Shown here piece by piece: positions 25,201-56,216 of a stretch of 64,000 nt of DNA (positions within the stretch are counted from its first letter, which is position 1; each line of letters opens with the position of its first letter). Both the position numbers and the translations under genes were made by a program. Below the pieces are notes generated by a model, which saw nothing but the letters and a program-made list of their open reading frames with translations, ran no database searches and was not told the origin of the DNA. This stretch comes from Pseudomonadota bacterium (GTDB lineage Bacteria; Pseudomonadota; Gammaproteobacteria; Burkholderiales; Thiobacillaceae). The DNA lies in NCBI GenBank assembly GCA_021784115.1, contig JAJXTE010000002.1, forward strand, positions 1 through 64,000, written 5' to 3'.

Positions 25201-26235
25201 TCATCGGCGATCGAGTTGCTTTACCAGCGTGCGTATGGGGGCGGGCAGCGCCGCGTCGAGCGCATCCGCCAGGGGCAGCCAGACCTGGCCGGGCAGCGTC
25301 GCGTGGCGCGGTGCGAGATGGAGTCTTACCGGCCGGATATGCAGCCTGAAGTGGGTGAAGCTGTGCGTGAATTGCGGCAGCGCCTGTTGGGTCAACGGGA
25401 CGAAGCCGAAGCGGTCGCGGCAGTGTCCGGCCGCGTCGGCGTCGGGGGCGAGTTCGGGCAGGCTCCACAGACCGCCCCATATGCCCTGCGAGGGGCGCTT
25501 TTCGAGCATCAGTTCGCCGCGGTCGAGCAGCAGCAGCATCTGCACCTGCTTTTCGGGCAGGGTTTTTTTGGGGCGCGGCGTGGGCAGTTCGTCGATGCGG
25601 CATTGCGTGCGCGCGATACAGTCGCCATTGACCGGACAGGCAGTGCAGTCCGGCCGACTGCGGGTGCAGACGAGCGCGCCGAGATCCATCATGCCTTGCG
25701 TGTAGGCCTCGATCCCGGCCCGCGGCAGTCGCGATTCGGCCAGCGTCCACAGCGCCGCTTCGACTTTCCTGTCGCCCGGCCAGCCGGCAAGTCCGCCGTG
25801 GCGAGCCAGCACGCGCTTGACGTTGCCGTCGAGAATGGCGCATGGCTGGCCGAATGCCAGCGCGGCGATGGCGGCGGCGGTCGAGCGTCCAACCCCCGGC
25901 AATCGTGCGATGGCGTCCGGCGTGGATGGGAAGGCGCCACCATGGCCCGCGATGATGCTGCGTGCGGCCGCGTGCAGATTGCGCGCGCGGCTGTAGTAGC
26001 CGAGACCGCTCCACAATGCGAGCACCTCGTCCTCATGGGCGGCGGCCAAGGCCGGCAGAACAGGGAAGCGTGCGAGAAAGCGCTCGAAGTAGGGGATGAC
26101 CGTGGCGACCTGCGTCTGCTGCAGCATGATTTCTGACAGCCAGATGTGATAAGGGTCGCGCGTGGCCTGCCATGGCAGGCTATGGCGGCCGTGGTGCCGG
26201 TGCCAGCTGACGATGCGGGAAGCGAACGATTTCAC
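25201..26235 (-). CDS. mutY: A/G-specific adenine glycosylase
   Basis: LPWQATRDPYHIWLSEIMLQQTQVATVIPYFERFL; Fe-S ligands CTRSRPDCTACPVNGDC; GTG start at 26235. Confidence 0.94.
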   Translation of the reverse strand: MKSFASRIVSWHRHHGRHSLPWQATRDPYHIWLSEIMLQQTQVATVIPYFERFLARFPVLPALAAAHEDEVLALWSGLGYYSRARNLHAAARSIIAGHGGAFPSTPDAIARLPGVGRSTAAAIAALAFGQPCAILDGNVKRVLARHGGLAGWPGDRKVEAALWTLAESRLPRAGIEAYTQGMMDLGALVCTRSRPDCTACPVNGDCIARTQCRIDELPTPRPKKTLPEKQVQMLLLLDRGELMLEKRPSQGIWGGLWSLPELAPDADAAGHCRDRFGFVPLTQQALPQFTHSFTHFRLHIRPVRLHLAPRHATLPGQVWLPLADALDAALPAPIRTLVKQLDRR

Positions 26236-26383
26236 CCCGGCAGGGTAGCCGGGGTGGAGGGATGAATCAATGCTGGAACCGCCGACGCCTGCAAGGAGTC
26301 GGCCGCGCGTGTCCCCGCGAGGGGAGGCCGTGCCAGCGACACCCCGGTTCCGGAGCCGGTCTGACGGCAAGGACACGTGCTCC

Positions 26384-26440
26384 ACCCGCAAGGGGTAGGC
26401 CGTGGTTGTGTAGCCGACAAATCGGCAACAGCCACGCTCA
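26384..26440. repeat. 57-bp intergenic hairpin element, copy 1
   Basis: Matches 55021..55077 with 8 mismatches by eye; outer stem CGTGGTTGT/ACAGCCACG, inner stem GCCGA-CAAA-TCGGC. Confidence 0.7.
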
Positions 26441-28627
26441 GGCGTGACCGAGTTTCTGGCGGAACAGGTTCATCAGCTTGCCGAACGCCGATTCGGTGAT
26501 CGACTTGCGTTCGACCAGCACGGCCTCGCCGCGGCGCAGCTTGTCGGCCAGGCGTGGCAGGCTGATGGAGAAACTGTTCATGCCGTCCTGGTCCGAGAAC
26601 AGGTAGGTGCTCTTGATGGTGCTGACCCAGCCCAGCCGCGCCCAGCGGAAGGTGCCGTCGTCGTAATGGAATTCCACCCAGGCGCCCTTGCTCATGGCGC
26701 AGGCGAGTTGGGTGAATTCGTCGTCCACGTCGGGCGCGGCCTGGGTCGCCGTCGCGGCGGCTCCAGGGGCGGCCGGGGCAGGCATCAGTTCCTCGATTTC
26801 TTCGGGTGTGATGTCGGGCAGGGGGACCGGCTGGGCGTTGGGGCGCACCGCGTTGGCGTGCAGGATGACCAGCGTGGCAAAGAAACGATCTGAGAGTTTC
26901 TGCGGCAGGTCGATTTCTGCCGTTCCTTCGCGCAGGCGTTTCAGCAGGCCGGGCAGGATACGCACCAGCATCAGGCGCGCGTCCATGTCGGCCTTGGGCT
27001 GCACGCTCCATATCAGCTCGCGCATGGTTTCGACATGGCTGTTGAAATGTGCGCCCTGCTCACCCTCGTTGGTGTAATCCAGGATGAGCAGTTGCGCCCA
27101 GTCGCGGCGCAGGAATTCGCGCACGGCGTCGCCTACGGGCTGGTCCTTGAGCGCCCGGTTGATGAAATCATTCACGATGACCGGCGCGAGTTCGGCACGC
27201 TCGGACTGTTTGATCTGAGCGATGTCCGGCTGCAGGCTGACGTCCAGCGTTTCCTCGAGCGTTTCTTCCAGGGTGGCGCCCATGGCCTCCAGCTCGGCGG
27301 CGGCGGATTCGAATACGGCAATGTCCTTCTCGAAACTGTCGAGCACCCGGCTCACGACCTGCGAGATGGCTTCAAGGCGGGCGTTGCCCGTCTCGTTGTC
27401 GGGAAGGTGCACGGCAAGCGTGGCGATCGCATCCAGCATGCGGCGTACAGGGTGATTCGACTGCGAGAAGAAGTTGCGGTCCAGCATCGCTGCCTTGAGC
27501 ACCGGAATCTGCAGGCGGGCGATTTGCGCCTTGAGGCGATCGGGGATCGAGGCTTCCTCGAATACCACGTCGAACAGCATCGCCACCGCGTCCACCAGCA
27601 CCGCATCGAGCGGGCTTGCAGACTGCATCACCGGACTTTGCTGCAGGCTGCGCAGGACGTTGCTGACTGTGGCGGCTTCGAGGAGGGGCAGCTCGAAGCG
27701 TCCGCCTCCGGGCAGCATCATGGCGCCGGACTGGAGTTGGCTGAGCGAATCGAGGAGGCTGAGGCCTGCAAACGCCGCCCCGCCGGCCGCGCCGCCCGCA
27801 GCCGGGCTGACACCCTGGGCGAGTTGCTCGAACAGCCTGAACATGTCGGAGCCGGTTTTCGCTTGCATGGCGGGCACTCCACCGGCCGACGCGGTACCGG
27901 CCGAAGCCGTGTTGTGCGCCCGGCTTTTCGATCCGATCTTGAGGTCGGGCAGGATGCCACGGTCGATCAGGTGACGGTTGAGGGATTGATATATCTGCGC
28001 GAGCTCGGTGGTCAGTACCAGATCGAACTGGTTCAGCAGCACAATCCGCACGTCCTGCTCCGGCTGCAGGCGGGCGATGCCGTCGAGGAGGGCATCGCAC
28101 AGCGCGCGCGGACCGAGCGGATTGTCGTTTTCCGCCAGGTCGGTCCGACTCAGCAGATGAGCGATTCGGGCATCCAGGGCGACCAGCTCTTCGGCGCTGT
28201 TGTAGCGCAGCCGGGACGTGGCCTTGTCGACTGCCAGCGTGATTTCAAAGTCATGGTCGTCCACCAGCGACAATTCGAGCAGATCGCCACCGGCGGTCTT
28301 CTCGCGGTTGTGCGTGAAGTCGTTGAAGGCCTCGCAGTACGTCTCCTTGCAGGCGCTCAGCAATTCATTGGCCTGCCGGTTGAGGATTCTCTGGGCCGCG
28401 TAGTAGGTGTTTCGTGTTTCCAGCAACGGTGTGCGGTCGGCCATCGCAAGCAGGGTGTTTTCCATTGCCTCGGCCTGCCGGGTAAGCACCCGGGTCGCGC
28501 CCTCGATCAAGAGGTCGCGGCAACCGTGCAGAACGGCCAGCGTCTCGGCGGAGACCTGCGTACGGCGTGATCGCTCGAACTGATTGAGGTTTACTACGAC
28601 TGAATTGTCTGGCATGTCGCGCTCCAT
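26438..28627 (-). CDS. DUF1631 family protein
   Basis: MERDMPDNSVVVNLNQFERSRR...; PVRRMLDAIA, C-terminal WVEFHYDDGTFRWARLGWVS. Confidence 0.85.
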   Translation of the reverse strand: MERDMPDNSVVVNLNQFERSRRTQVSAETLAVLHGCRDLLIEGATRVLTRQAEAMENTLLAMADRTPLLETRNTYYAAQRILNRQANELLSACKETYCEAFNDFTHNREKTAGGDLLELSLVDDHDFEITLAVDKATSRLRYNSAEELVALDARIAHLLSRTDLAENDNPLGPRALCDALLDGIARLQPEQDVRIVLLNQFDLVLTTELAQIYQSLNRHLIDRGILPDLKIGSKSRAHNTASAGTASAGGVPAMQAKTGSDMFRLFEQLAQGVSPAAGGAAGGAAFAGLSLLDSLSQLQSGAMMLPGGGRFELPLLEAATVSNVLRSLQQSPVMQSASPLDAVLVDAVAMLFDVVFEEASIPDRLKAQIARLQIPVLKAAMLDRNFFSQSNHPVRRMLDAIATLAVHLPDNETGNARLEAISQVVSRVLDSFEKDIAVFESAAAELEAMGATLEETLEETLDVSLQPDIAQIKQSERAELAPVIVNDFINRALKDQPVGDAVREFLRRDWAQLLILDYTNEGEQGAHFNSHVETMRELIWSVQPKADMDARLMLVRILPGLLKRLREGTAEIDLPQKLSDRFFATLVILHANAVRPNAQPVPLPDITPEEIEELMPAPAAPGAAATATQAAPDVDDEFTQLACAMSKGAWVEFHYDDGTFRWARLGWVSTIKSTYLFSDQDGMNSFSISLPRLADKLRRGEAVLVERKSITESAFGKLMNLFRQKLGHA

Positions 28628-28884
28628 GGTGATCACCTCGCGGTATCGGCGGTCAGCCGGCCTGGAACGAGGGAGAGGCGTGCGCGTGACAGAATTACTG
28701 CCGGCGGCCCCGCTGTCTCGATCGCCTGCTGTGACGGGCGAGACCGGTAACTTTGCGTCCCCGCCTCGCGGCGGGTTTGCCCTGTTCGGTGGTCGGCGAT
28801 CATGTCGAAGAATCGACAAAAAACCGCATAACTGGCCTATCGGCCCAAGGTGAGAAAAACTTGAGTGCTGTCGGGGAAAAAATC

Positions 28885-53531: not shown

Positions 53532-54923
53532 ATGGCCGCCATCCACTCCCTGACTGCAAATCCCGATCCCCAGCTGGCGCAAATGCGCCTGCCACCACAC
53601 TCGCTGGAAGCCGAGCAGGCGGTGCTGGGGGGCCTGCTCCTCGACAACAGCGCATGGGACCGCATTGGCGATGTCGTGTCGGAGAGCGATTTCTACCGCC
53701 AGGATCATCGCCAGATCCTGCGCGCCATCGTGCGGCAGATCGCCGAAAACCGCCCGGCCGACGCGGTGACGGTCGCCGAGGCGCTGCAATCGATGGGCCA
53801 ACTCGAAGGCGTCGGCGGACTGACCTACATCGTCGCGCTCGCGAGCAACACGCCCTCGGCCGCCAACATCCGCCGTTATGCCGAGATCGTGCGCGAGCGC
53901 TCGGTGATGCGGCGCCTCGCCGAGGTCGCGACCGGCATTGCCGACACTGCCTATTCGCCGGCCGGGCGCAGCGCCTCGCAGCTGCTCGACGAGGCGGAGG
54001 CCAAGGTGTTCGAGATTGCCGAATCCGGCAGCCGCGGGCAGGCTGGGTTCACCGAAATCAAGCCGTTGCTGAAGGAGGTGGTCGAGCGCATCGACGAGCT
54101 CTATCACCGCGACAACGATTCCGGCGTCACCGGCGTGCCGACCGGCTTTCACGACCTCGACCAGAAAACTTCGGGCCTGCAGCCGGGTGACCTCATCATC
54201 GTCGCCGGCCGGCCTTCCATGGGCAAGACCGCCTTCTCGATCAACATCGCCGAAAACGTCGCGCTCGACACCGGCCTCCCGGTGGCGGTGTTCTCGATGG
54301 AAATGGGCGGCACCCAGCTGGTGATGCGGATGATCGGCTCGGTCGGCAAGCTCGACCAGCACCGGCTGCGTACCGGCAAGCTGGGCGAGGACGACTGGCA
54401 GCGCCTCACCTATGCGCTCGGCAAGCTCAACGAGGCGCCGGTGTTCATCGACGAGTCGCCAGGCCTCAACGTGCTTGAACTGCGCGCGCGTGCACGCCGC
54501 CTGATGCGCCAGTGCGGCAAGCTCGGCCTCATCGTGATCGACTATTTGCAGCTGATGTCGGGCAGCGGCGGCGGCGAAAACCGTGCCACCGAGATTTCTG
54601 AAATCTCGCGTGCATTGAAGGGTCTGGCGAAAGAGCTGCACGTGCCGGTGATCGCGCTGTCGCAGCTGAACCGCAGCCTGGAGCAGCGCCCGAACAAGCG
54701 CCCGGTCATGTCCGACCTGCGCGAATCGGGTGCCATCGAGCAGGACGCCGACGTCATCCTGTTCATCTACCGTGACGAGGTCTACAACCCCGACACGCAG
54801 GACAAGGGCACCGCCGAAATCATCATCAGCAAGCAGCGTAACGGCCCGATCGGCACCGTGCGGCTGGCCTTCCTCGGCGAATACACGCGCTTCGAGACGC
54901 TGGCGCAGCCCGGTTCCTACTAA
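53532..54923 (+). CDS. dnaB: Replicative DNA helicase
   Basis: PHSLEAEQAVLGGLLLDN, LIIVAGRPSMGKTAFSINIAENVAL, IVIDYLQLM. Confidence 0.97.
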   Translation: MAAIHSLTANPDPQLAQMRLPPHSLEAEQAVLGGLLLDNSAWDRIGDVVSESDFYRQDHRQILRAIVRQIAENRPADAVTVAEALQSMGQLEGVGGLTYIVALASNTPSAANIRRYAEIVRERSVMRRLAEVATGIADTAYSPAGRSASQLLDEAEAKVFEIAESGSRGQAGFTEIKPLLKEVVERIDELYHRDNDSGVTGVPTGFHDLDQKTSGLQPGDLIIVAGRPSMGKTAFSINIAENVALDTGLPVAVFSMEMGGTQLVMRMIGSVGKLDQHRLRTGKLGEDDWQRLTYALGKLNEAPVFIDESPGLNVLELRARARRLMRQCGKLGLIVIDYLQLMSGSGGGENRATEISEISRALKGLAKELHVPVIALSQLNRSLEQRPNKRPVMSDLRESGAIEQDADVILFIYRDEVYNPDTQDKGTAEIIISKQRNGPIGTVRLAFLGEYTRFETLAQPGSY

Positions 54924-55020: not shown

Positions 55021-55077
55021 ACCCGCAAGGAGCAGGCCGTGGTTGTAAAGCCGATAAATCGTCAACAACCACGCTCT
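55021..55077. repeat. 57-bp intergenic hairpin element, copy 2
   Basis: Same element as 26384..26440 (49 of 57 positions identical by eye); outer stem CGTGGTTGT/ACAACCACG. Confidence 0.7.
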
Positions 55078-55148: not shown

Positions 55149-56216
55149 ATGCGGCCCATCCAGGCGCGGATTTCAGTTGGTGCGATGGCGCATAACCTGC
55201 GCGTGGCGCGCAGCCACGCAGGTGCAGCGCGTGTGTTCGCGGTAGTCAAGGCCAACGCCTACGGCCACGGGTTGTCGCGTGCACGGCGCGCGCTGGCGGC
55301 GGCGGACGGCTTTGCCGTGCTCACATTGGAAGAAGCAGCCAATCTGCGGCAAATGGGTGTGGAACAGCCCATCCTGCTCCTCGAGGGGATCTTCGGCCCG
55401 GACGAAATCGCGGCCTGTGCCGAACTCGACCTTTGGCCGGTTTTGCACCATCACGTGCATCTCGACTGGCTGCAGCAGCAGCCGCCTGCGCGACCCATTC
55501 AGGTCTTTCTCAAATTCGACAGCGGCATGCACCGGCTGGGATTTCCGCTCGCCGACCATGCCGCCGCCGTTGCGCGGACGAAAAGTCTGGCCGGGGTGGC
55601 CGGCCTCACCTTGATGACCCACTTTGCCCAGGCGGACGAGGCTGCGGGGGTGGGTTGGCAATTGCAGCCCTTTCTGGAGCAGATGGCCCGCTATGGCCTG
55701 CCTTGGAGCAGCGCCAATTCGGCGGCGCTGCTGCGTTATCCGGATACCCTGGGCACGTGGGTGCGGCCGGGACTGATGCTGTATGGCGCTTCGCCGTTTG
55801 CCGACGTCTCAGCCGAGCAACTGGGGCTGCGGCCGGTGATGACCCTGCAATCTGAAATCATCAGCGTGCAGATCCTGCAGGCGGGCGAAGGGGTGGGATA
55901 TGGTCAACTGTTTCGCGCCGAACGCACGATGCGGGTGGGGGTGGTGGCTTGCGGCTATGCGGACGGCTATCCGCGCCATGCGCTGACCGGCACGCCGGTC
56001 CTGGTCAACGGACGCGCGAGCCGGACCCTGGGGCGCGTGTCGATGGACATGCTGTGCGTGGACCTGAGCGAATGCCCGGATGCGGGGGTGGGGAGCCGGG
56101 TCGTGCTGTGGGGCGAGGGCTTGCCGGTGGACACGGTGGCCACCGCCGCAGGCACCAGCAGTTATGAACTGCTGTGCGCGCTGGCCCCCCGGGTACCGAT
56201 TGAGGAAGCCGACTAG
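55149..56216 (+). CDS. alr: Alanine racemase
   Basis: MRPIQARISVGAMAHNLRVARSHAGAARVFAVVKANAYGHG; GRVSMDMLCVDL. Confidence 0.96.
   Translation: MRPIQARISVGAMAHNLRVARSHAGAARVFAVVKANAYGHGLSRARRALAAADGFAVLTLEEAANLRQMGVEQPILLLEGIFGPDEIAACAELDLWPVLHHHVHLDWLQQQPPARPIQVFLKFDSGMHRLGFPLADHAAAVARTKSLAGVAGLTLMTHFAQADEAAGVGWQLQPFLEQMARYGLPWSSANSAALLRYPDTLGTWVRPGLMLYGASPFADVSAEQLGLRPVMTLQSEIISVQILQAGEGVGYGQLFRAERTMRVGVVACGYADGYPRHALTGTPVLVNGRASRTLGRVSMDMLCVDLSECPDAGVGSRVVLWGEGLPVDTVATAAGTSSYELLCALAPRVPIEEAD

Follow-up and report, generated by a model that had tools for sequence, protein, structure and literature searches.

Small palindromic repeats are common in bacteria, and their movement can rarely be tested. 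One such repeat is found in a stretch of 64,000 nucleotides (the window, taken here as the whole stretch of DNA that was analysed) from a Thiobacillus genome of 2.23 Mb in 155 contigs that is 91% complete. The repeat adjoins a gene for a DUF1631 protein, whose closest relatives are in Thiobacillus genomes, and recurs in the spacer between dnaB and alr. An initial annotation made from the letters considered a REP-like element, a mobile hairpin of the RAYT type and a shared terminator or attenuator, and the locus raises the question of whether the repeat moves and, if so, by what machinery.

Two copies of a hairpin repeat in the window

The two copies (Table 1) are the same 57-nt sequence with exactly eight mismatches between them, as the initial annotation had it, and since a 27-nt core pattern is expected 0 times in the window and observed twice, chance is excluded as the source of the repeat. 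The proposed fold, a 9-bp outer stem and a shorter inner stem with a 4-nt loop, is likewise correct: positions 18-26 and 45-53 of the element form the outer stem, the inner stem measures 5 bp, and the reported exchange of T-G for T-A in the outer stem is pair 23:48, which changes from U-G to U-A. In copy 2 the outer stem is a perfect 9 bp and the inner stem carries one mismatch. A 5' mini-hairpin that had not been described is also part of the unit. The right arm of copy 1 does reach the DUF1631 stop codon, where it supplies the GA of the minus-strand TGA. This gene end is also occupied in L046, L049 and L051, and the copy is decayed or absent in other relatives.

Table 1. Coordinates of the two copies, their parts and the neighbouring genes in the window
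Feature	Position	Strand	Basis or remark
Copy 1 of the mobile element	26384..26440	+	56-nt body 26384-26439 plus 1 base; BLAST, covariance-model and profile matches
5' mini-hairpin CCC-GCAA-GGG, GNRA-type loop	26385..26394	+	Alignment, pair counts
GNAG tetranucleotide (GTAG in copy 1), on the 5' side of the main stem with a 2-nt gap, a layout shared with some REPs	26395..26398	+	Copy counts
Main hairpin of copy 1: 9-bp outer stem, 3-nt/1-nt internal loop, 5-bp inner stem, 4-nt loop	26401..26436	+	Fold, covariation
DUF1631 TGA stop, GA from the right end of the element	26438..26440	-	Sequence
DUF1631 protein gene (PF07793), host gene adjoining copy 1	26438..28600	-	Pfam E=2e-169
MutY gene (HhH-GPD + NUDIX_4), downstream of the DUF1631 gene and copy 1	25201..26235	-	Pfam
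dnaB, upstream of copy 2	53532..54923	+	Pfam
Copy 2, exact 57-bp insertion in the dnaB-alr spacer	55021..55077	+	Body 55021-55076 plus duplicated T
Main hairpin of copy 2	55038..55073	+	Fold
alr (alanine racemase), downstream of copy 2	55149..56216	+	Pfam

Three further observations concern the surroundings of copy 1. Copies occupy the same gene end in many species, where the gene contributes the T of the TGA and the element its other two bases, GA (for example L060, L064, L071, L078 and L123). A c-di-GMP-I-GGC riboswitch (RF03167, 60.7 bits) is located on the minus strand at 28699-28790, immediately upstream of where the DUF1631 gene probably starts. The stretch beside copy 1 at 26287-26383 may hold older, decayed nested copies with the modules CCTGCAAGGAG and CCCCGCGAGGGG; its fold is no better than that of shuffled sequences, and a nested copy is therefore not claimed there.

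Structure and conservation of the element

The element measures 56-57 nt and has four parts: the 5' mini-hairpin, the GNAG tetranucleotide, a long hairpin with a bulge, and a tail of the form C(T/A)C. An alignment of 46 distinct copies yields the consensus ACCCGCAAGGGGcAGGCCGTGGTTGTaaAGCCGaTaAAtCGgCAACAACCACGCTC, which contains in order CCC-GCAA-GGG, GNAG, two bases, the 9-bp stem, the internal loop, the 5-bp stem with its 4-nt loop and a CTC or CAC tail. GNAG is present in 149 of 155 copies (96%), of which 64 have GTAG (41% of all copies), 61 GCAG and 24 GGAG. A CT tail is found mostly in GCAG copies and a CA tail mostly in GGAG copies; a matching of guide and cleavage site on this basis is set aside, because copies that are related cannot count as independent and GGAG departs from the published rule. 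The ends of the element (ACCCGC... and ...CACGCTC) are not complementary, so that it is without terminal inverted repeats, and it codes for nothing.

The stems are maintained by compensatory change. In the alignment, 95.4% of the cells of this structure are paired, as are 93.5% of those of the mini-hairpin, which is the most widely conserved module. Two-sided changes occur in seven of the 17 pairs and involve both stems, and the covariation score is 0.160, whereas shuffles score 0.072 and slid controls 0.009-0.032. The main hairpin has a fold z-score of -3.4 as RNA and -3.0 as DNA, and the genomes that were read completely show the exchange of entire stems, as in GTCGCTGT/ACAGCGAC and GAAGTTGT/ACAACTTC.

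Distribution

The window copies are members of a large dispersed family. BLAST detects about nine additional copies, complete or almost so, in the same genome, with E down to about 1e-16, and the genome-wide covariance-model search that the initial annotation had called for finds 16 copies. The lack of further copies and of a conserved structure, which had been named as grounds for giving up the idea, is thus not what is seen: the family is large and both of its stems covary. All 56 Thiobacillus genomes contain the element, with 1-62 covariance-model matches each, and variants are present in three other genera of the family, reaching 125 matches in G111. The 5' module combined with other stems extends across other families of the order, with 38 of 399 sampled genomes positive in a sample that includes the element's own family. 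Among eight outside loci inspected, five fold alike, one does so partly and two lie in coding sequence without a hairpin. Related elements that have the 5' module CCCGCAAGGGGNANGCCG but different stems are seen at G000:C35:6268-6287, in L226-L229 (CoaE) and in L276-L283. Carriage by phages or plasmids is rejected, since the element has no match in either; in viral contigs a 25-nt pattern gave none. No mention of the element was found in the part of the Thiobacillus literature that was covered.

Empty and filled sites

The element is mobile, as is evident from orthologous sites that are exactly empty in some genomes and exactly filled in others. The difference between a filled and an empty site is exactly 57 bp, the moving unit being a 56-nt body plus one base, and any target duplication amounts to at most 1 bp. 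The dnaB-alr spacer is 225 nt long in the genome of the window versus 168 nt in G028 (L312), a difference of 57; the site is also empty in G039 (L285) and G024 (L286), and the spacer is only a few bases long in most other relatives. Absent from three relatives with the same spacer, copy 2 is a lineage-specific insertion.

Insertions are also found in protein-coding genes. In the gene for PrlC (Peptidase_M3), the site holds 0 nt in 18 of the 30 fetched loci (L206, L209-L225); L196 and L197 have exactly 57 nt there, and in L207 it contains an in-frame insert of 114 nt that is a nested pair. PrlC of L208 has a further 51-nt hairpin element inside the 57-nt element, with the reading frame kept. 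A second hairpin element of this kind (~51 nt, CCCTAAAGGACTCCGATCCACTATGGGCTGAAGCCCATGTGGAATCGTATG) is found in the loop of the 57-nt element in L003 (about 1415-1485), L126 and L208. MutY orthologues with the element in frame are present in L029, L032 and L033, and in CoaE of L226-L229 the element lies within another small palindrome, of which the other genomes read have neither. These three ORFs stay open with inserts of 57 or 114 nt and retain Pfam domains on both sides; a single insert corresponds to 19 codons, and in-frame copies thus add 19-38 residues to core enzymes such as PrlC, CoaE and MutY. Identical 56-mers are found at unrelated sites and in different target classes, and their occurrence in a GTAG-type REP and at a self-nested site of one genome argues that the body moves independently of the host repeat.

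Target sites and orientation

Targets were classified at 144 distinct sites, a census that is weighted to the copy-rich genomes G029 and G003, so that its proportions are not genus averages. GTAG-type REPs account for 46 sites and TGGA..TGACG (CGTC-type) palindromes for 10, which together make up about 40% of the sample. A further 24 sites adjoin another copy, and 13 are nested in another copy, all of them at one point in its bulge, GTTGT^AAAG. Automatic scoring places three sites in ORFs, and the remaining 48 include many at stop codons. The base to the left of the element is a pyrimidine in 143 of the 144 sites, and in many cases the same base also follows the element (C|C 46, T|T 33). The idea that every target forms a hairpin is rejected, only REP and CGTC targets being more folded than control positions.

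Orientation within REPs is uniform: all 50 scored copies, 40 in GTAG-type (strict pattern) and 10 in CGTC-type repeats, point the same way and none the opposite. Copies that neighbour each other lie head-to-tail (24 tandem) or one within the other (13 of 144 sites) in nearly every case, an exception being a facing pair in L120. The bias in orientation relative to GC skew is weak overall (p=0.012) and absent in G029 and G003, and any replication-strand bias is weak and inconsistent. In G111 a single REPIN recurs in about 20 composites, one of its arms having the element in its loop and the other presenting the site unoccupied. One repeat is found inside others here: the element invades REPs and REPINs and is probably multiplied together with them. 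G111 belongs to another genus, and its loci L256-L271 display a recent burst of a GTAG REPIN, every one of which has the element in one arm.

How the element may be moved

With a probability of roughly 0.55, the element is a non-autonomous, REP-like single-strand transposon that is moved in trans and is often carried along inside REPs; the mobility is observed, and the enzyme is a candidate put forward by analogy. The in vitro substrates of TnpA_REP possess a GTAG guide, a 2-nt spacer and CT/CA cleavage (PMC8266576), and the layout of the element (GNAG, 2 nt, stem-loop, CT/CA) matches them. From this likeness, the element would move as folded single-stranded DNA. Its mini-hairpin and main hairpin would play the parts that the left and right end hairpins have in an IS200/IS605-type transposon, and GNAG would be the guide sequence. 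An HUH-type enzyme, either a RAYT or an IS200-like TnpA, would cut it in trans, and inside a REP or REPIN it would be further multiplied as part of the composite. No host function needs to be invoked, and at gene ends the element probably provides only a stable 3' mRNA hairpin.

The main difficulties of the HUH model are the possible 1-bp duplication, which is atypical of IS200/IS605, and the RAYT-free genomes. A search for RAYT genes, also suggested in the initial annotation, detected no Y1_Tnp/RAYT gene in the genome of the window (91% complete), which nonetheless has its lineage-specific copy 2, and none, close RAYT relatives included, in G024, G031 and G055 (99-100% complete), which contain 14-21 copies. 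At the RAYT loci inspected (L114, L176, L184, L185, L193 and L195), the repeats on either side of the gene are GTAGGAGC-type REPs rather than the element, which is present there only as an insert (L114). The best studied TnpA_REP tolerates no GTAG substitution (PMC8266576), and the limited share of GTAG copies (64/155) counts against the model, as does the fact that orientation shows no strong bias with respect to GC skew. In favour of the model, copy number is higher in genomes with a close RAYT, at a median of 31.5 versus 10.5 in the others (p=6e-4, kinship not corrected for); the excess is partly REP-resident and may reflect the larger number of REPs to occupy. The many copies, the compensatory changes and the exact 57-bp empty sites thus bear out the mobile, REP-like hairpin of the initial annotation, whereas its RAYT part is an analogy.

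The same kind of mobile hairpin could instead be moved by non-HUH machinery that prefers palindromes, for example by an IS110-like or a reverse-transcription route, which is possible, if somewhat unlikely. Such machinery would account for the element in RAYT-free genomes, the lineage-specific copy in the genome of the window included, and there is a precedent in IS elements known to target REPs (PMC1525189). It would also suit an element without terminal inverted repeats and with a target duplication that never exceeds 1 bp, which for these two reasons is not a classical DDE element. However, the loci inspected include no autonomous partner or longer ORF-bearing copy, and the close resemblance of the layout to TnpA_REP substrates speaks for an HUH enzyme. 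Tentatively, the element may also represent a distinct class of miniature elements that target palindromic repeats (REPs, REPINs and their own copies) in strict orientation, with exactly 57 bp and a 1-bp duplication, in which case the enzyme would be neither a RAYT nor a classical transposase.

It is doubtful that the element is a true REP of the GTAG superfamily with a cognate RAYT, merely longer than usual. The frequency of GNAG (96%), the 2-nt spacer and the 3-nt tail are as expected of the GTAG-1/2 families (PMC3733652), but those REPs have a terminal unpaired GTAG (or GYAG-type) motif, a RAYT (Y1) gene with copies of that REP on its flanks, and predominantly head-head dimers. In the element the motif is internal, the moving unit starting 11 nt upstream, and is GTAG in only 41% of copies; none of the RAYT genes inspected is flanked by it, and its repeats are head-to-tail or nested. 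Even less credible is a passive hitchhiker that spreads only inside RAYT-copied REPs and REPINs, its other copies arising by recombination or inheritance. The share of sampled sites in REPs (about 40%), the identical REPIN composites of G111 and the higher copy number in RAYT genomes would fit, but this reading is already contradicted in PrlC, the dnaB-alr spacer and MutY, where insertions of exactly 57 bp occur with no REP present, and identical bodies occur in different target classes. A shared cis-regulatory RNA between genes (terminator, attenuator or mRNA stabiliser) is highly improbable despite the stable fold, the compensatory changes and the frequent position just after stop codons, given that no T-tract, the hallmark of an intrinsic terminator, follows the stem at copy 1 or copy 2 (0 sites), that copies are inserted in frame into ORFs, reside inside other palindromes and take both orientations relative to genes, and that sites are not conserved between species. 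A known RNA family is rejected as well, Rfam giving no match to the element at the gathering threshold in the window and none at E<=1 for copy 1.

In sum, the family offers coding, intergenic and repeat targets whose sites are exactly empty in some genomes and exactly filled in others, together with a clear orientation rule, and as these are combined with genomes that have and that lack RAYTs, the rival mechanisms can be separated.

Comparison with known systems

GTAG and CGTC REPs are known, including copies in ORFs and in other palindromes (Di Nocera 2013, PMC3733652). The element is REP-like and resembles those associated with RAYT/TnpA_REP (PMC3733652; PMC8266576) as a small dispersed palindrome with covarying stems, an intergenic gene-end bias, some in-frame ORF copies, GNAG 2 nt from the stem and a CT/CA tail. 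It is nevertheless placed outside the GTAG superfamily, because it is a two-hairpin 57-bp unit whose extra 5' mini-hairpin moves with it, its tetranucleotide is internal and variable rather than terminal and fixed as GTAG, its copies are arranged head-to-tail or nested in themselves, and it inserts into REPs in strict orientation; in addition, RAYT genes carry other REPs and the element is present without RAYTs. CGTC REPs have an unpaired CGTC/TGACG end, a stem of 8-9 bp, a loop of 4-5 nt and a CCA tail; the element has no such ends, and repeats of this type host it at 10 distinct sites.

Like the Rickettsia RPE and the Wolbachia WPE, the element is palindromic DNA that lies in frame in conserved protein genes and leaves them open, here PrlC, CoaE and MutY. 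RPEs in ORFs are known, and MITE-type RPEs carry terminal inverted repeats (PMC2229807, Table 1), whereas the element has none and, by their description, is shorter and targets other repeats. With the bacterial MITEs (Correia/NEMIS, ERIC, RUP) it shares a dispersed, non-autonomous nature and no coding capacity, but it is without their terminal inverted repeats, TA ends and target duplication of at least 2 bp. Organelle double-hairpin or repetitive hairpin-forming elements, as described for sponge mtDNA (PMC2800124), are similarly short and mobile, with two hairpins, no ORF and insertion into other sequences; being eukaryotic and unrelated in sequence, they offer an analogy of form only. Finally, unlike IS200/IS605 elements, the element has no transposase gene, no fixed target tetranucleotide beyond the pyrimidine and one extra, possibly duplicated, junction base. 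Its two hairpins and its fixed orientation in REPs may correspond to their left and right hairpins and strand-specific insertion (summarised in PMC8266576), its orientation bias with respect to GC skew being weak and inconsistent, and, like them, it has no large target duplication.
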